Origin: Phycisphaerae bacterium
GTDB lineage: Bacteria; Planctomycetota; Phycisphaerae; SM23-33
Reading direction: 5' to 3'
Assembly (NCBI GenBank): GCA_011050235.1
Contig: DRGC01000017.1
Coordinates: forward strand, 1-64,000
DNA length: 64,000 bases
This document shows positions 23,980-30,979 of this stretch, one piece after another; within the stretch, counting starts at the first letter, position 1; each line of letters begins with the position of its first letter. The notes beneath the pieces are model-generated. The model was not told the origin of the DNA, did not search any database, and saw only the letters and a list, made by a program, of their open reading frames with translations. A program made the translations under genes and the position numbers.

Positions 23980-24008
23980 TTGACAGCTAACACCGCGCGC
24001 CCTATACT
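23980..24008 (+). promoter_or_regulatory. Near-consensus sigma-70 promoter of the his operon
   Basis: TTGACA (23980-23985), exactly 17 bp, then TATACT (24003-24008). The -35 is perfect and the -10 matches TATAAT at five of six positions. Predicted transcription starts near 24015, about 40 nt before the leader-peptide ATG. Confidence 0.85.
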
Positions 24009-24055
24009 TGTGTTGTCGATGCGGGCCATCGACAGATTGTGAGATTTCAGGACGA

Positions 24056-24124
24056 ATGAACGCGCGAACGTTTAACATGCACCATCATGCTCATTTGACC
24101 CGAAAGGGCCGGACGATGGTGTAG
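24056..24124 (+). CDS. hisL: Histidine operon leader peptide (HisL-like)
   Basis: A 22-codon frame starting at ATG 24056, with AGGA 4-5 nt upstream, and ending at TAG 24122-24124. Its core reads NMHHHAH, so four of five consecutive codons (24080-24094) are His. It sits between a strong promoter and an intrinsic terminator, upstream of hisG. By analogy with enterobacterial HisL, ribosome stalling at the His codons when charged tRNA-His is scarce would switch the RNA fold and allow readthrough. An in-frame start at 24077 is also possible. The sequence is unlike enterobacterial HisL apart from the His run. Confidence 0.85.
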   Translation: MNARTFNMHHHAHLTRKGRTMV

Positions 24125-24179
24125 TCTGCCGTTTGTGACACGACACCAACAACGCCGGCCTCCCGCCGGCGTTTTTTTT
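24080..24179 (+). promoter_or_regulatory. Transcription attenuator of the his operon
   Basis: Three alternative pairings are visible. (1) The His-codon region CACCATC (24080-24086) pairs with GATGGTG (24115-24121), enclosing an inner CCC-GAAA-GGG hairpin (24099-24108). (2) GGCCGG (24107-24112) can instead pair with CCGGCC (24155-24160), which overlaps the terminator's left arm, so this is the antiterminator. (3) The terminator stem ACGCCGGC/GCCGGCGT (24152-24159 with 24165-24172) is followed by eight T. This is the textbook arrangement for ribosome-mediated attenuation. Confidence 0.82.
24152..24179 (+). terminator. Intrinsic terminator within the his attenuator
   Basis: An 8-bp G+C-rich stem (9 with the flanking A-T pair), 5-nt loop CTCCC, then a run of eight T at 24172-24179. 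It lies about 39 nt before hisG, so it must be controlled rather than constitutive. Confidence 0.9.
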
Positions 24180-24217
24180 CGTTCATCGCCAGCTGTGGGG
24201 TCGCCGATTGGAGAAAC

Positions 24218-25090
24218 ATGATGAACGATGACACAACAGAGATCAGACTGGCCCTGCCCAAGGGTCGCATGCAGGCGGGGATTCTGGACTTGCTGGCGGG
24301 GGCCGGCATCCACATCACCGTCAGCGCCCGCGGGTATCGGCCTTCGCTGTCGTTGCCGGGCTTCGAGGCCAAGCTGCTCAAGCCGCAGAACGTCGTGGAA
24401 ATGCTGGCAGCCGGATCGCGCGACCTTGGCTTCGCCGGGGCGGACTGGGTGACCGAACTCGACGCCGATCTGGTCGAGCTGCTGGACACCGGCTTGGACT
24501 CGGTGGGGATCGTCGCAGCCGCTCCGGTCGATCTGGTCCAGGACGGCCAACTGCCCAAGCGGCATCTGGTCGTCGCCTCCGAACTCGAGCGGATCACCAC
24601 CGACTGGATTCGCTCGAAAGGTCTGGACGCCACGTTCGTGCGGACCTACGGCGCGACGGAAGTCTTCCCGCCCGAAGATGCCGATGTCATCGTCGACGTC
24701 ACGGCCACCGGCGAGACGCTCGAGGCCAACAAGCTGGTAATCGTTGAGGAACTGTTCCGCTCATCGACACGTCTGTTCGCCAGCCCGGGAGCGTTGGCCA
24801 ACCCCGCCAAGAAGGCGCGAATCGACGAGTTGCTGCTGCTGCTCACATCGGTGCTCGAAGCGCGGCGGCGGATGATGGTCGAGGTCAATGTGCCCGCGGA
24901 TATCCTGGAAGACGTCATCGCCATCCTGCCGGGCATGGGCGAACCGACGATGGCGCCGCTGCACGGCGGGACAGGTTATGCCGTCAAGGCGGCTGTGCTC
25001 AAGAAAGACCTGACCCGGATCATTCCGGAGATCAAACGCCGCGGCGGCACGGACATCGTCGTCACGGAACTCTCGCAGATCGTTCCATAG
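24218..25090 (+). CDS. hisG: ATP phosphoribosyltransferase HisG (long form)
   Basis: 290 residues. It catalyses the committed step of histidine synthesis (ATP + PRPP). Family segments include IRLALPKGRMQ at the N-terminus, 'DLGFAGADWV', and the PRPP loop DADVIVDVTATGETLEANKL. Beyond about residue 210 the sequence continues into a C-terminal regulatory domain (EVNVPADILEDVIAILPGM), so this is the long, self-sufficient HisG_L form with histidine feedback. No hisZ would be needed. The start is ATG 24218 or the adjacent ATG 24221, with GGAG upstream. It is the first structural gene after the attenuator. Confidence 0.96.
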   Translation: MMNDDTTEIRLALPKGRMQAGILDLLAGAGIHITVSARGYRPSLSLPGFEAKLLKPQNVVEMLAAGSRDLGFAGADWVTELDADLVELLDTGLDSVGIVAAAPVDLVQDGQLPKRHLVVASELERITTDWIRSKGLDATFVRTYGATEVFPPEDADVIVDVTATGETLEANKLVIVEELFRSSTRLFASPGALANPAKKARIDELLLLLTSVLEARRRMMVEVNVPADILEDVIAILPGMGEPTMAPLHGGTGYAVKAAVLKKDLTRIIPEIKRRGGTDIVVTELSQIVP

Positions 25091-25101
25091 GAACCCCACC
25101 C

Positions 25102-26475
25102 ATGAACGATAGACCGATCTCCCCGCAACCGTCACCTTTCGCCGCAGCGGTGAAGACCTATCGCCCGCCTGTCCCGCTGGCGCCCACGGACCTGCGCCTC
25201 AGCGGCAACGAGGGCTCACTGCTCATGACGAACTGGCTGGGTGTGCTGGGCGACCTGGCCCCGCAGACCATCAGCCGATATCCATCCGTCGCCGAGCTGG
25301 AGGGGGATATCGCCCGCGCGTTCGGCCTCCAGCGGCAGCAGGTGCTCGCCGGCACGGGCGGTGACGATGCGGTCGAACGGACGATTCGCGCGTACCTGTG
25401 TCCCGGACGTGAGATCATCCTGAACGAGCCGAGCTTTGTGATGCTCCAGCGATACGCGACGCTGGCCGGCGGCGACTGTGTGTTCGTGCCCTGGCTGGCC
25501 GGGCCGCTGCCGGTCGATGAGATGCTCGCCGCCGTCACCGAGAGGACGGTCATGATCACTGTGGTCTCGCCGAATAACCCCACCGGCCTGGTCGCCACGG
25601 TCGAAGACCTCCGACGCCTGCGCCGCGAGGCCCCGTCGGTGCTGCTGCTGGTGGACCTGGCCTACGGCGAGTTCGCCGACGACGACCTGACCGACGCGGC
25701 GCTGTCCCTGCCGAACACGGTCGTCATTCGCAGCTTCTCCAAGGCGTGGGGCCTGGCCGGTCTGCGGGTCGGCTGGGCGGCGGGGCCCGCCGACGTCATC
25801 GAACACCTGCGGGCGGTCGGCCATCCGTATCCGGTCTCGTCGCTGTCGATGGCGATCGTCTCGCACATGCTGCAGCACGGGCGGGAGGACGTCGAGACGT
25901 TCGTCGGCCAGGTGCGCACCAGCCGCCGCACGCTCTCGCAGACGCTGCAACGCGGCGGCGGCGAAGTGACGCCGTCGCAGGGCAACTTCGTGCTGGTCCG
26001 CTTCGATAATGCCGTCTGGGTCCGAGACGCCCTGGCGGGCATGGGCATCGCCGTCCGCGCCTTTCCCGAAGTCCCGGTCCTCCACGACCGGCTGCGGATC
26101 ACCGTCCCCGGCGAGAAGACCGTCCTGGGGAGACTTTGCGAAGCGCTCGAGACCGTCCTCCAGCCGGAAGCGATTCTGCTGGACGCCAAACTCGCCGATC
26201 ACCAGGAAACCGTCCGGCCCGCGTGCAAGGGCCTCGCCCTCGGCGTGGTTGCCGGGCCCGCCGCCGATGACATCCGGCAGACGTGCAGCCAGTTGGGCGT
26301 CGAGCGGGCGTGGATGCTGACAGCCGGCGCCGAAACCACCGGCGCGGCCCGACAGGCCGGGGTCCTGCCCGTTGCCGTCGCCACCGCGGACGGCTTGTCC
26401 GAGACCGACCTGCTGACAGCCGGCGCCGCCAAGGTCCTGAGCGACGTCGCGCAGATTAAGGAGCTCCTGCCATGA
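25102..26475 (+). CDS. hisC: Histidinol-phosphate aminotransferase-like protein with C-terminal HAD-like tail
   Basis: 457 residues. Residues 1 to about 355 form a class I/II PLP aminotransferase: SPNNPTGL, then the PLP lysine in SFSKAWGLAGLRVGW, and 'RITVPGEK' near the end, all as in HisC. About 100 further residues follow. The segment AGVLPVAVATADGLSETDLL, then AGAAKVLSDVAQIKELLP, resembles the C-terminal half of HAD phosphatases (AAGV.P.GV.....E..L..GA..V). The acidic loop usually before it (GD..D) is replaced by TAGAET, and no DxD nucleophile segment is present. The tail may be a degenerate or regulatory HAD remnant. No separate histidinol-phosphate phosphatase occurs in the operon. It overlaps hisB by 4 nt. 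Confidence 0.9.
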   Translation: MNDRPISPQPSPFAAAVKTYRPPVPLAPTDLRLSGNEGSLLMTNWLGVLGDLAPQTISRYPSVAELEGDIARAFGLQRQQVLAGTGGDDAVERTIRAYLCPGREIILNEPSFVMLQRYATLAGGDCVFVPWLAGPLPVDEMLAAVTERTVMITVVSPNNPTGLVATVEDLRRLRREAPSVLLLVDLAYGEFADDDLTDAALSLPNTVVIRSFSKAWGLAGLRVGWAAGPADVIEHLRAVGHPYPVSSLSMAIVSHMLQHGREDVETFVGQVRTSRRTLSQTLQRGGGEVTPSQGNFVLVRFDNAVWVRDALAGMGIAVRAFPEVPVLHDRLRITVPGEKTVLGRLCEALETVLQPEAILLDAKLADHQETVRPACKGLALGVVAGPAADDIRQTCSQLGVERAWMLTAGAETTGAARQAGVLPVAVATADGLSETDLLTAGAAKVLSDVAQIKELLP

Positions 26476-27062
26476 AAAAGCGGTCTGCAACTATCGAACG
26501 CAAGACGGCCGAAACCGACATCCGCCTGACGCTCAATCTGGATGGAACCGGCCAAGCCGACGTGAACACCGGCATCGGATTCTTGGATCACCTCCTGACA
26601 TCGCTAGCGCGACACGGACGGTTCGATCTGGAGCTTTCGTGCCAAGGCGATCTCCAGGTCGATGACCATCACACCGCGGAGGACTGCGCCATTGTCCTCG
26701 GCGAGGCGATCGACAAGGCCCTGGACCAGCGGCGCGGCATCAACCGCTTTGGCTGGGCCCTGGCGCCGTTGGACGAGGCGCTGGCCCGGGCCGCCGTGGA
26801 CCTGTCCGGCCGAGGCATGGCCGTGGTGCGCCTGGACCTCAGCGGCCAGCCGCTCGGAGATCTGCGGGCCGAGAACATCCCGCACGTCATTCGCTCCCTG
26901 GCCGCCTCGGCCAAGGCGACGATCCACCTCGACGTGCTGCGCGGCGACAACGATCACCACCGCGCTGAGTCGGCGTTCAAGGCCCTGGCGCTGGCGCTTC
27001 GCCAGGCCGTCGCCACCGACGGCACGGACCAGATCCCCAGCACGAAGGAAACACTGAAGTGA
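26472..27062 (+). CDS. hisB: Imidazoleglycerol-phosphate dehydratase HisB (monofunctional)
   Basis: 196 residues, the size of the stand-alone dehydratase. It dehydrates imidazole-glycerol phosphate. The two metal-binding motifs are visible as GIGFLDHLLTSLARHGRFD and DDHHTAEDCAIVLGEA in the first half, with the pseudo-symmetric counterparts 'NIPHVIRSLA' and 'GDNDHHRAESAFKALALALR' in the second. Unlike the enterobacterial HisB there is no N-terminal HAD phosphatase domain, so histidinol-phosphate dephosphorylation must be done elsewhere. It overlaps hisC (ATGA) and is followed by hisH with a 4-nt overlap. Confidence 0.95.
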   Translation: MKKRSATIERKTAETDIRLTLNLDGTGQADVNTGIGFLDHLLTSLARHGRFDLELSCQGDLQVDDHHTAEDCAIVLGEAIDKALDQRRGINRFGWALAPLDEALARAAVDLSGRGMAVVRLDLSGQPLGDLRAENIPHVIRSLAASAKATIHLDVLRGDNDHHRAESAFKALALALRQAVATDGTDQIPSTKETLK

Positions 27063-27682
27063 CAGGTCCGGATGTCATCGTCGTTCGTACCGGCACAGCC
27101 AACGTCGCCTCGATCCTGGCCGCCCTGGGCCGCCTTGGGGCGACCGGGCGGATCAGCAGCGATCCGCGGGAGGTCCAGCGGGCCGACCGCCTCGTCCTGC
27201 CGGGCGTGGGGACGTTCGGCGCGGCGATGGCGCGCCTGGACTCCGACGGCCTCGTCGGACCCCTTCGCAAACGCCTTGACGACGACCGACCGACACTGGC
27301 CGTCTGCGTCGGCATGCAGTTGCTGCTCGAAACCAGCGAGGAAAGCCCGGGCGCCGAGGGCCTGAGGGCCTTTGCCGGGACGCTTGAGCCGTTCTCCGGC
27401 GATATTCGCGTGCCGCAGATGGGCTGGAACAACGTGACGGCCTCAGCCGATTGCCGCATCCTGGCCTCCGGTTATCTGTACTTCGCCAATTCATACCGGT
27501 TGGCTGCGCCCCCGGATGGCTGCGCTGCGGCGACGGCCGACTACGGCGGCCGATTTGTCGCCGCGTTGGAGCGAGGCCATCTCGTAGCCTGCCAGTTTCA
27601 TCCGGAGCTGTCGGGCGTGTTGGGGCTGGACATCATGCGACGCTGGCTCAACGGCGCCGGCCAGGAGAGACCATCGTGCTGA
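27059..27682 (+). CDS. hisH: Imidazole glycerol phosphate synthase glutaminase subunit HisH
   Basis: 207 residues starting at GTG 27059, overlapping hisB by 4 nt. It is a class I glutamine amidotransferase supplying ammonia to HisF. The oxyanion strand LPGVGTFG, nucleophile Cys in AVCVGMQLLLETSEES, and the catalytic His-Glu in CQFHPELSG are all present. Compared with the usual CLGMQ the nucleophile motif reads CVGMQ, a mild variation. It overlaps hisF by 7 nt. Confidence 0.95.
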   Translation: MTGPDVIVVRTGTANVASILAALGRLGATGRISSDPREVQRADRLVLPGVGTFGAAMARLDSDGLVGPLRKRLDDDRPTLAVCVGMQLLLETSEESPGAEGLRAFAGTLEPFSGDIRVPQMGWNNVTASADCRILASGYLYFANSYRLAAPPDGCAAATADYGGRFVAALERGHLVACQFHPELSGVLGLDIMRRWLNGAGQERPSC

Positions 27683-28431
27683 CGGTGCGAGTGATTCCAT
27701 GTTTGGACGTCCGCGACGGACAGGTCGTCAAGGGCGTGCAGTTCCAGAATCTTCGGGCCGCCGGCGATCCGGCCGAACTGGCGGCTGAATATGAGCGACA
27801 GGGCGCCGACGAGCTGGCGCTGCTGGATATCTCCGCCACGCCCCAGGGCAAAAGGACGTGCGTCGAAACGATCCGGCGCGTGCGGGCGGCGCTGATGCTA
27901 CCGCTGCTCGTCGGCGGCGGCGTCCGCTCGGTCGACGACGCCGCGGCGCTTCTGGAAGCGGGCGCCGATAAGGTGTCCATCAACACCGCTGCGGTCGAGC
28001 GGCCGGAGCTGATCGACGAACTGGCCGACCGCTTCGGCCGACAGTGTATGGTCCTCGCAATCGATGCGGCGATGGCGACCGATGATAGGTTCGAAGTCGT
28101 CACGCGGTCAGGCAAATGCCGCACCGGGATCGATGCGGCCGTCTGGGCCGGCCAGGCCGCCCAGCGCGGCGCCGGTGAGATCCTGCTGACCTCGTGGGAT
28201 CGAGATGGGACCCTGGAGGGATATCACCTCGGGCTCATCACGCAGGTCGCCGGCGAAGTCGACGTGCCCATCATCGCATCGGGCGGGGCCCGCAGCGCCG
28301 AACACATGGCCGAGGCCGTCGCGGCCGGGGCGACCGGGTTGCTGGCGGCGTCGATCTTTCACTACCGCCAATGGACGGCCAGCCAGCTCAAGGATCAACT
28401 GGCGACCATGGGCGTGGAGGTCCGACCGTGA
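27676..28431 (+). CDS. hisF: Imidazole glycerol phosphate synthase cyclase subunit HisF
   Basis: 251 residues starting at GTG 27676, with AGGAG 8 nt upstream. It is a TIM barrel that closes the imidazole ring and releases AICAR. The catalytic Asp is in VIPCLDVRDGQVVKG and the second in 'LTSWDRDGTLEGY'. 'DKVSINTAAV' and 'IIASGGA' are the phosphate-binding loops. It partners with HisH immediately upstream. Its stop overlaps the GTG start of the HisA-HisI-HisE fusion. Confidence 0.96.
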   Translation: MLTVRVIPCLDVRDGQVVKGVQFQNLRAAGDPAELAAEYERQGADELALLDISATPQGKRTCVETIRRVRAALMLPLLVGGGVRSVDDAAALLEAGADKVSINTAAVERPELIDELADRFGRQCMVLAIDAAMATDDRFEVVTRSGKCRTGIDAAVWAGQAAQRGAGEILLTSWDRDGTLEGYHLGLITQVAGEVDVPIIASGGARSAEHMAEAVAAGATGLLAASIFHYRQWTASQLKDQLATMGVEVRP

Positions 28432-29696
28432 TCATTCCCTCGATCGACATCATGGACGGCTGCGCCGTGCAGCTTGTGGGCGGCAAGGACAAGGCCATCG
28501 ACGCCGGCGATCCGTTCCCCATCGCCGAGCGGTTCGCGCTGGCCGGCGAGATCGCCGTCATCGACCTCGATGCCGCCATCGGCAACGGCGACAATCGTGA
28601 CCTGATCGCCAGGCTGGTCGACCGATTCCCCTGCCGCGTCGGCGGGGGCATTCGCACGCGAGACAGGGCCCTGGAATGGCTGGACGCCGGCGCCAGGCGC
28701 ATCATCATCGGCACGGCCGCCGAGCCAGAGCTGCTTGAGGCCCTACCCCGCGAGCGCGTTGTCGTCGCCCTGGACGCTTACCATGGCGACGTCATGGTCG
28801 AGGGATGGCGCCGGCCAACCGGGCGGAACGTCCTGGACCGGATCGCCGAACTGAAGGGCCTCGCCGGGGGGTTCCTGGTCACCTGGATCGAGAAAGAGGG
28901 CCGACTGACCGGCGTCGACCTCGACAAGATCGCCGAGGTGGTCCGCGCCGCCGGCGACGTGCGTGTAACGGCGGCCGGCGGGATCACCACGACCGACGAA
29001 ATCGCCGAGATCGACCGCCTGGGCGCCGACGCACAGGTCGGCATGGCGCTCTATACGGAACAGATGGATTTCGCCGAGGCCATCGTCGCGCCGATGCGGT
29101 CCGATCGGCCGGACGGCCTCTGGCCCACCGTCATCGTCGACGAGCGCGGCTGCGCGCTGGGCCTGGCCTACTCCGACCTGGACAGCGTCAAAGCCGCCGT
29201 CACCGGCCGGGAAGGCGTGTACCATTCGCGCACCCGAGGCCTGTGGGTCAAAGGCCAAAGCTCCGGCAACACACAACAACTCTTGCGCATCGACCTCGAC
29301 TGCGACCGCGACACATTGCGCTTCATGGTCCGTCAGGCAGGTGAGGGATTCTGTCACCATGGATCGTGGACGTGTTGGGGCGACGACCGGGGCCTGGCCC
29401 GCCTGGCCCGGCGACTTCTCGCCCGCGCGGGCCAAGCGCCCGAGGGATCGTACACGAAGCGATTGCTCGATGACCCCGCCCTGCTGGCGGCCAAGCTGAC
29501 CGAAGAGGCCAACGAACTGATCGAGGCGGACACTCCCGATGACGTCGCCGCCGAGGCGGCCGATGTGATCTATTTCGCCTTGGTCGCGATGGCCCGTGCG
29601 GGCGTAGGTCTCGCCGAGATTGAGGATGTCCTCCAGCGGCGCGAATGGCGCGTGACTCGCCGCCCGGGCGACGCCAAGACGGAGACGAACGAATGA
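28428..29696 (+). CDS. hisA: Trifunctional HisA-HisI-HisE fusion protein
   Basis: 422 residues starting at GTG 28428, with GGAGG 7 nt upstream and a 4-nt overlap with hisF. Residues 1 to about 218 are a HisA-type barrel (ProFAR isomerase): IIPSIDIMDGCAVQLVGG with the catalytic Asp, CRVGGGIRTRD, and TAAGGITTTDEI. Residues about 228-320 are PRA-cyclohydrolase (HisI): YHSRTRGLWVKGQSSGNTQ, with zinc-ligand Cys at about 292, 309 and 316, spaced as in known HisI. Residues about 335-422 are PRA-pyrophosphohydrolase (HisE): GSYTKRLLDDP, KLTEEANELIEA and EAADVIYFALVAM. The protein therefore carries pathway steps 4, 3 and 2. HisI-HisE fusions are common; joining HisA in front is unusual to my knowledge. 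Confidence 0.93.
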   Translation: MIIPSIDIMDGCAVQLVGGKDKAIDAGDPFPIAERFALAGEIAVIDLDAAIGNGDNRDLIARLVDRFPCRVGGGIRTRDRALEWLDAGARRIIIGTAAEPELLEALPRERVVVALDAYHGDVMVEGWRRPTGRNVLDRIAELKGLAGGFLVTWIEKEGRLTGVDLDKIAEVVRAAGDVRVTAAGGITTTDEIAEIDRLGADAQVGMALYTEQMDFAEAIVAPMRSDRPDGLWPTVIVDERGCALGLAYSDLDSVKAAVTGREGVYHSRTRGLWVKGQSSGNTQQLLRIDLDCDRDTLRFMVRQAGEGFCHHGSWTCWGDDRGLARLARRLLARAGQAPEGSYTKRLLDDPALLAAKLTEEANELIEADTPDDVAAEAADVIYFALVAMARAGVGLAEIEDVLQRREWRVTRRPGDAKTETNE

Positions 29697-30979
29697 CCGC
29701 CGGCCCGCTCACACTCATCTCCGCCGCTGACCTGCCGCCCGCCCGCCGACAGGCGCTCGATGACGAGACCATCCGCACGGCCGGGCAGATCGTCCGGAAC
29801 GTGCAGACCGGCGGGGAGGCCGCACTGCGACAGCACGCCGAACGACTGGGCGATCTGCAGCCGGGCCAGCCGCTGGTGATCGGGAAAGCGGAACTCAACG
29901 AGGCCCTATCCCAGATCGACAGCGAGACACGGGCGCTGATGGAGCGTGTTGCCGAGCGGATCCGAGCCTTCGCCAACGCACAGTTGAACAGCCTCAGCGC
30001 GTTTGAGTTGCCGATCCCCGGCGGCGCGGCGACTCAGTGCATCGATCCGGTGGAACGTGCGGGCTGTTACGCCCCGGGCGGCCGACATCCGCTGCCGTCG
30101 TCGGTGCTGATGACGGCCATCACCGCGCGCGTCGCCGGCGTGAAAGAAGTGTGGGTCGCTTCGCCCACCCCCCCGCCGGAAACGCTAGCCGCCGCGGCGA
30201 TCTCCCGGGCCGATGGTCTCCTGGCCGTTGGCGGCGCGCAGGCCATCGCGGCGCTGGCCTTCGGCGCGGGCGTCCCCGCTTGTGACGTGATCGTCGGCCC
30301 GGGAAACCGCTTCGTCACAGCCGCCAAATACCTGGTCTCCGATCGCGTCGGAATCGACATGCTCGCGGGCCCGTCGGAACTGGTCGTCCTGGCCGACGAA
30401 TCCGCCGACGCGTCCATGATTGCCGCGGACCTGTTGGCCCAGGCCGAACACGACCCCGACGCGAGGGTCATCCTCGTGGCCACCAGCCGCTCCGCCATTG
30501 ACGCGGTCAACGAACACCTGGCCGCCCAACTGGAGGCATTGCCCACCGCGCCGGTCGCCCGACAAGCCCTCAGCAACGGCCTGGCCGTGCTCGCCGGCGA
30601 CATGGATGAGGCCGTCCGGGTCTGCGACGACATCGCGCCGGAGCACCTGGAGCTGCACGTTGGATCGCCGCAGCGCATCGCCGCGCGCGTGAAGCACTTC
30701 GGGGCGCTGTTCGTCGGCCCGGGCGCCGCCGTCGTGCTCGGCGACTACGGCGCGGGGCCAAACCACACGCTACCGACAGGCGGCACGGCCCGACAGACCG
30801 GCGGGCTGTCCGTATTCAACTTCCTTCGAGTCCGGACCTCCCTCCGCATCGACGACACAGCCGCCGCGGAGGAGATGTTCAAGGACGCCGAACGATTGGC
30901 CCGACTGGAAGGCCTGGAAGCCCACGCCCGAGCCGCCGCCATTCGCCGCCGCACCGCCGACGAACCACCCGGCGCCTGA
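29693..30979 (+). CDS. hisD: Histidinol dehydrogenase HisD
   Basis: 428 residues starting at ATG 29693, overlapping the fusion gene by 4 nt. It oxidises histidinol to histidine in two NAD-dependent steps with a zinc ion. Family landmarks are GCYAPGGRHPLPSSVLMTA, VGGAQAIAALAFGAG, VGPGNRFVTAAKYLV, the zinc-binding AQAEHDPDA, and the C-terminal 'GPNHTLPTGGTARQTGG'. It is the last gene of the his operon. About 30 bp later comes the end of a convergent gene. Confidence 0.96.
   Translation: MTAGPLTLISAADLPPARRQALDDETIRTAGQIVRNVQTGGEAALRQHAERLGDLQPGQPLVIGKAELNEALSQIDSETRALMERVAERIRAFANAQLNSLSAFELPIPGGAATQCIDPVERAGCYAPGGRHPLPSSVLMTAITARVAGVKEVWVASPTPPPETLAAAAISRADGLLAVGGAQAIAALAFGAGVPACDVIVGPGNRFVTAAKYLVSDRVGIDMLAGPSELVVLADESADASMIAADLLAQAEHDPDARVILVATSRSAIDAVNEHLAAQLEALPTAPVARQALSNGLAVLAGDMDEAVRVCDDIAPEHLELHVGSPQRIAARVKHFGALFVGPGAAVVLGDYGAGPNHTLPTGGTARQTGGLSVFNFLRVRTSLRIDDTAAAEEMFKDAERLARLEGLEAHARAAAIRRRTADEPPGA

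Follow-up and report, generated by a model that had tools for sequence, protein, structure and literature searches.

The region ahead of hisG at positions 23980-24217 (plus strand) of the window, meaning the whole 64,000-nucleotide stretch of DNA that was analysed, is very probably a classical ribosome-mediated transcription attenuator specific for histidine. It combines a leader open reading frame (ORF) rich in codons for histidine, the end product (four His codons, in a run kept at the codon level in relatives), an intrinsic terminator between this ORF and the first structural gene, an antiterminator that cannot coexist with this terminator and shares its upstream strand with the end of the leader ORF, and the cognate biosynthesis genes hisG, C, B, H, F, A-IE and D as the presumed target of control. 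The first-pass annotation had proposed a His-specific attenuator of this kind, and every part visible in sequence is indeed present, in the right order and with a complete his operon downstream. All of these parts, their conservation and the covariation of the two alternative helices are observed computationally. The window by itself would only suggest this reading; what decides the matter is that relatives conserve the element.

Transcription of the element would be driven by a promoter at 23980-24008 (plus strand), in which a -35 hexamer TTGACA (23980-23985) and a -10 hexamer TATACT (24003-24008) are separated by a 17-nt spacer, just as first annotated, and match the consensus at 11 of 12 positions. 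This is the best promoter-like site in the surrounding 19 kb, the sole other site there matching at 9 positions, and the control region is free because a divergent gene on the minus strand has its likely start, as judged from its translation, around 23818. The transcript is expected to start near 24015. At its expected 5′ end, folding predicts a hairpin (GUCGAUG CGGGC CAUCGAC, 24015-24033, plus strand) that buries an AUG at 24019, the position of the leaderless start in most relatives. This AUG opens a seven-codon ORF, MRAIDRL* (24019-24042), in a frame other than that of the His leader; the hairpin and the small ORF (24015-24042 of the window) could modulate translation of the His leader.

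The leader ORF proper (24056-24124, plus strand) encodes a 22-residue peptide, MNARTFNMHHHAHLTRKGRTMV*, with the previously noted HHHAH motif, and has homologous His leaders in relatives. A Shine-Dalgarno-like AGGA (24049-24052, plus strand) lies close to its AUG. The His codons occupy 24080-24088 and 24092-24094 and number only four; shuffling the same 420 nt 2000 times yields at least four His codons within seven in a short ORF 15 times. With 47 nt between the -10 hexamer and the AUG, and AGGA ahead of the latter, the window copy appears to be derived and to initiate from a Shine-Dalgarno site.

Three alternative structures, all on the plus strand, follow from the leader. The pause hairpin 1:2 (24078-24123) pairs 24078-24086 with 24115-24123 in nine base pairs, so that the His codons pair with the leader stop region as initially described. 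The antiterminator 2:3 (24106-24161) pairs 24106-24112 and 24114-24115 with 24153-24161. It contains the GGCCGG/CCGGCC pairing recognized at first and is larger than this, adding a second helix of UGGUGU (24117-24122) with ACACCA (24143-24148). The intrinsic terminator 3:4 (24151-24179) has a 9-bp stem formed by 24151-24159 and 24165-24173, with a T8 tract at 24172-24179; the tract ends 38 nt before the hisG ATG at 24218, a distance given earlier as 39 nt. Structures 2:3 and 3:4 are mutually exclusive, since 24153-24159 are common to the antiterminator and the terminator stem. Against dinucleotide shuffles of strand 2, the antiterminator fold of the window is only marginally better than chance, beating 95.7% of them (p=0.043), and the window's pause hairpin beats 98.7% of shuffles (p=0.013); among relatives, the 1:2 hairpin reaches p<0.05 against shuffles in only 18 of 73.

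From this layout, a transcript start, leader translation, ribosome stalling and a response to histidine can be inferred. RNA polymerase would start near 24015 and the leader ORF would be translated behind it. When charged His-tRNA is scarce, the ribosome would stall on the His codons (24080-24094) and cover strand 1, leaving strand 2 (24106-24122, where the leader ORF ends) to pair with strand 3 (24143-24161); with 2:3 formed, the terminator would not assemble and polymerase would read into hisG and the remaining operon. When His-tRNA is plentiful, the ribosome would reach the stop codon (24122-24124) and cover strand 2, strand 3 would pair with strand 4, and transcription would end at the T8 tract. 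If the leader is not translated, the 1:2 hairpin should form, 3:4 should again pair and the operon should stay off.

Folding with a modelled ribosome is consistent with this scheme when strand 4 has not yet been made. With the ribosome on the second His codon, seven of the nine strand-3 positions pair upstream (-24.6 kcal/mol); with the ribosome at the stop codon, two of nine do so (-0.2 kcal/mol). In equilibrium folding with a masked ribosome, the terminator of the window dominates at every ribosome position. The same equilibrium test applied to the proven his attenuator of E. coli also gives the terminator as winner (P>0.92 throughout), and this test is therefore non-discriminating. Because the terminator wins at equilibrium in every state, the switch must be kinetic, both in the window and in E. 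coli his. Switching even at equilibrium is seen in 31 of 73 relatives.

The downstream operon is complete and consists of seven mostly overlapping ORFs on the plus strand. Its first structural gene, hisG (24218-25090, plus strand; TIGR00070 and TIGR03455), is preceded by GGAG at 24210-24213. The rest of the regulated operon (25102-30979, plus strand) runs from hisC to hisD: hisC (25102-26475, a weak family match), hisB (26472-27062), hisH (27059-27682), hisF (27664-28431), a hisA-hisIE fusion in a single ORF (28428-29696) and hisD (29690-30979). The HisC protein (25102-26475) is 457 aa long, extends about 100 residues past its aminotransferase match and scores below the cut-off of the HisC model; its end contains a stretch recalling the tail of a HAD phosphatase.

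Conservation in relatives had been set beforehand as the test that could refute the assignment, and in an alignment of 70 relatives the leaders, both alternative helices and the terminator prove to be kept and to covary. Of 79 related loci with upstream DNA, about 70 have a short ORF ahead of hisG that includes a His run (His/Tyr in the Candidatus Palauibacter group). The leader-bearing loci come from Planctomycetota, Gemmatimonadota, Acidimicrobiia and Spirochaetota and share homologous terminators and antiterminators. Among the 73 leaders with a terminator that were extracted, window included, the leader stop lies 20-47 nt from the terminator, apart from a single case at 13 nt. No His leader is present at 22 loci with a distant type of hisG from the window's own family, order and class, and eight loci, mostly from Proteobacteria and Myxococcota, carry the window type of hisG without a leader.

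At the codon level, CAT and CAC are about equally frequent in the leaders (203 and 196). In the aligned His codons, positions 1 and 2 are nearly fixed and the third alternates freely between C and T; alignment column 33, for example, is a pyrimidine in 70 of 70 rows (39 T, 31 C). Free wobble positions next to near-fixed first and second positions point to selection on histidine, and not on RNA pairing alone. Outside the His run, the peptide is not conserved and its end follows the needs of RNA pairing.

Covariation was assessed on A1, a MAFFT alignment of 70 relatives not fitted to any structure, and by swapping strands among 49 non-redundant leaders (<80% similarity). In the latter set, strand 2 binds its own strand 3 better than swapped partners (z=-5.2, 0 of 20000 permutations). 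The strand-3 core is CCG[A/G]CC: where it carries A (CCGACC), the facing strand-2 base is U in nine of nine cases, and where it carries G, the facing base is C or U in 26 of 28. Double changes on A1 number 18 for the 2:3 antiterminator (8.1 when shuffled, 0/500) and 22 for the 3:4 terminator (6.7 when shuffled, 0/500), counts that are inflated by kinship among the alignment rows; sliding the pairing partners abolishes both signals. A stronger point than the pair counts is that both helices use the same columns with matching changes on both partners, as where an A in column 138 goes with U in both column 61 and column 155. Run on the full alignment, RNAalifold returns the terminator only, because the alternative structures are mutually exclusive and the antiterminator changes register between subgroups.

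A further shared property is the position of the promoter. In 47 of 54 relatives with a scorable promoter (for example L003-L006 and L031-L107), 5-12 nt separate the end of the -10 hexamer from the leader start codon, a spacing at which transcription is expected to begin on the leader AUG or right beside it. When a fixed score cut-off is applied, 43 of 73 relatives have this spacing, as against 0.5% at shuffled and 2% at random anchors, and so do 17 of the 21 scorable cases among new covariance-model matches. The leader mRNA is thus probably leaderless in most relatives, with the window as an exception. In two relatives, Rfam also finds a tRNA gene ahead of the His leader, at a distance of a few hundred bases (L031, 2562-2635; L071, 2683-2773).

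The wider distribution of the element was surveyed with R1, a covariance model built on A1 whose training set included the Spirochaetota records. At E<1e-6, R1 matches 25 of 298 Phycisphaerae genomes, and all 25 matches are the window, loci already read, or matches in which a His leader was read, mostly visibly before hisG. At E<1e-5, it matches 17 of 294 Planctomycetota genomes, a substantial minority of Gemmatimonadota genomes (42 of 249), and 12 of 198 genomes from the class of an Acidimicrobiia record. Among matches outside the training set (Gemmatimonadota, Acidimicrobiia), a leader ORF is present in 26 of 28 and in nearly all of these includes a His run. These homologous leaders in Planctomycetota, Gemmatimonadota, Acidimicrobiia and Spirochaetota extend His attenuation beyond the groups in which it has been reported, an extension that the first-pass annotation had raised for Planctomycetota. 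One Gemmatimonadota locus (L251, G367:C13) has two His leaders in a single his operon, one before hisG and another 2.9 kb further on before hisB. Loci submitted as Armatimonadetes, Cyanobacteria, Acidobacteria and Dehalococcoidia nest inside other groups in the hisG tree and may be mislabelled bins.

Variation in the control codons is most pronounced in Candidatus Palauibacter, a member of Gemmatimonadota, and in its relatives (L069, L073, L075, L078, L085, L091, L093, L260, L271 and L273), whose hisG leader reads MTNTH(P/A/L)(F/Y)F(G/R)H(Y/H)(Y/F)(Y/F)HR..GGR. Here Tyr or Phe take the place of most of the His run. Tyr codons are one C-to-T step away from His codons, and L093 has an intermediate HHYYH. 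It is possible that this group records a natural change of the sensed amino acid.

Leaders of other specificities were also encountered in some Phycisphaerae. Thr-rich leader ORFs such as MMLVTTTTTTTTTTTTRPPAIG and MNTLTTTTTATTTTLTRGAGGL, with a terminator-like hairpin, lie before thrS in L159 (G233), L156/L214 (G058), L162 (G224) and L171 (G147), and are likely threonine attenuators of threonyl-tRNA synthetase. Phe/Tyr-rich leaders (MWNLLAADRRYFFSSFRAPRGRPVRA and MNMLLRAFCYYFNRFTNAVGPAAV) with terminators precede a chorismate mutase/prephenate dehydratase-like gene in L157 (G124) and L161 (G139) and are likely pheA attenuators. A general occurrence of Thr and Phe leaders in the class was considered and set aside: a search upstream of 30 thrS and 30 pheA genes returned one Thr leader only, and such leaders are sporadic in the class.

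Could the His-rich ORF be incidental, lying in a plain 5′ UTR with a premature terminator that is constitutive or differently controlled, and with hisG driven mainly by other means? Short His runs can arise by chance in GC-rich DNA (at least three His in seven codons in 57 of 1460 shuffles, at least four in 4 of 1460), yet a chance run would not be expected to persist at the codon level in about 70 of 79 related loci with fixed first and second positions and free wobble, next to an antiterminator and a terminator that covary, while being absent from the 22 unrelated hisG loci of the same family, order and class. This makes an incidental ORF very improbable. Slightly less probable still is an element that acts mainly on translation, or as the source of a small RNA or a functional His-rich peptide, and not on termination of his transcription. 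His-rich peptides can bind metals, which would offer such a peptide a role. Moreover, the trpL leader RNA of Sinorhizobium acts in trans and its leader peptide has a function of its own (PMC7298713). A peptide function nevertheless fits poorly with a sequence that is unconserved beyond the His run, whose end tracks RNA pairing needs and whose run in Palauibacter is largely Tyr/Phe. A strong T8 terminator conserved in position likewise speaks against this alternative, and no predicted fold hides the hisG ribosome site. Histidine-specific attenuation of transcription remains the preferred reading.

The odd placement of the operon in its genome raises the separate question of whether the contig is a binning error and the element foreign to this planctomycete family. 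The window hisG is 60-68% identical to those of other Phycisphaerae families, Gemmatimonadota and Acidimicrobiia and only about 33% identical to those of its own family, and no hisG match above 35% identity was found in the other searched genomes of that family. Misbinning is nonetheless improbable: the tetranucleotide profiles of the contig flanks correlate at 0.54-0.85, mostly at least 0.7, with the compared contigs of the genome, much as those other contigs do among themselves, which makes the contig native by profile; no second hisG was found in the genome; and the same leader occurs in other Planctomycetota whatever the bin, including the isolate Planctomycetes bacterium Poly30, CP036434, whose leader stands at locus L094. 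Horizontal transfer would explain both the odd identities and the absence of another hisG. Since other genomes of the family carry a distant hisG without a leader, the simplest reading is that operon and attenuator probably arrived together by such transfer. In the hisG tree, the window falls inside the leader-bearing clade without a strongly supported sister.

An independent origin in planctomycetes, raised at first as an alternative, is outweighed by the homologous terminator, antiterminator and hisG type found across phyla, which favour shared ancestry, although support for the deep nodes of the hisG tree is poor; the window copy, seemingly a product of horizontal transfer, is a single example among many in a cross-phylum family. 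A more far-reaching proposal, for which the chances appear evenly balanced, is that a single old family of His-attenuator RNAs, leaderless in its basic form, has been passed between phyla with one type of his operon. It would then constitute a widespread leader-peptide attenuator family outside Proteobacteria, in which the Palauibacter control codons, changed largely from His to Tyr/Phe, would represent a natural change of sensed amino acid.

The mechanism itself is the known one of trp/his attenuation; what is new is a homologous His attenuator in several phyla that lack a prior report in the literature searched. It implies that tight transcription-translation coupling is used for regulation in little-studied phyla, Planctomycetota included, and the element offers a simple reporter for testing such coupling. 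Operon and switch seemingly move together and so provide a useful case of horizontal transfer of regulation. Of greatest interest are the probable leaderless start, the spread of the element among phyla together with its operon, and the replacement of His by Tyr/Phe codons in Palauibacter.

A broad survey found amino-acid leader attenuators to be mainly gamma-proteobacterial and placed their possible origin in Gammaproteobacteria, with transfer elsewhere judged very rare (PMC3766115). The earlier statement that His attenuation is best known from this class needs a qualification, since it has already been reported outside it, in Firmicutes: His-leader attenuators occur in the Bacillus cereus group, the C. 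difficile group and Erysipelotrichales (PMC9413887), together with hisS/hisZ leaders (PMC2965389). Other finds of amino-acid leader attenuators come from Firmicutes and Actinobacteria. A 2005 survey of Actinobacteria saw no RNA structure conserved ahead of his genes in the members it covered (PMC1262725), and a 2015 Russian conference paper, as far as its citation in PMC4833913 conveys, describes His leader peptides in Actinobacteria; actinobacterial cases may therefore already be partly known. For Planctomycetota, Gemmatimonadota, Phycisphaerae and Acidimicrobiia, the literature searched, which leaves out most subscription papers, contained no leader-peptide or attenuator report on point.

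The His_leader model of Rfam (RF00514), proposed as a check, gave no match at gathering score in the window or the whole genome, with the E. coli positive control matched, nor in 17 related loci, and none at E<=10 in the 1.7 kb around the leader. Rfam as a whole, at gathering score and at E<=10, produced only weak generic terminator-like sRNA matches in the window. Because RF00514 does not match, the element is, judged by its sequence, a separate and undescribed RNA family with a classical mechanism, missing from Rfam. It resembles hisL of E. coli and relatives (RF00514) in having a His-codon run in a short leader ORF, alternative hairpins, an intrinsic terminator and hisG downstream, and in its behaviour in equilibrium folding. 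It differs from hisL in leader peptide, strand sequences and spacing, and its terminator core, CGCCGGCC/GGCCGGCG, is specific to the window's group. In addition, E. coli hisL is not leaderless, whereas most relatives of the window appear to be. The Firmicutes His leaders, compared by description, are alike in their His-codon run (3-5 in a row there), their terminator and antiterminator and their escape from RF00514 (PMC9413887), but belong to another phylum and are each narrow in range. A parallel for the start of the transcript is the leaderless trpL of Sinorhizobium meliloti (PMC7298713), whose first nucleotides are the leader ATG, as also seems to be the case in most relatives of the window element; it senses Trp instead of His and belongs to Alphaproteobacteria, and the window copy itself is not leaderless. 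Finally, the trp and leuS/trpS attenuators of Corynebacterium and Streptomyces (PMC1262725) share with the element a GC-rich complementary triple common to antiterminator and terminator.
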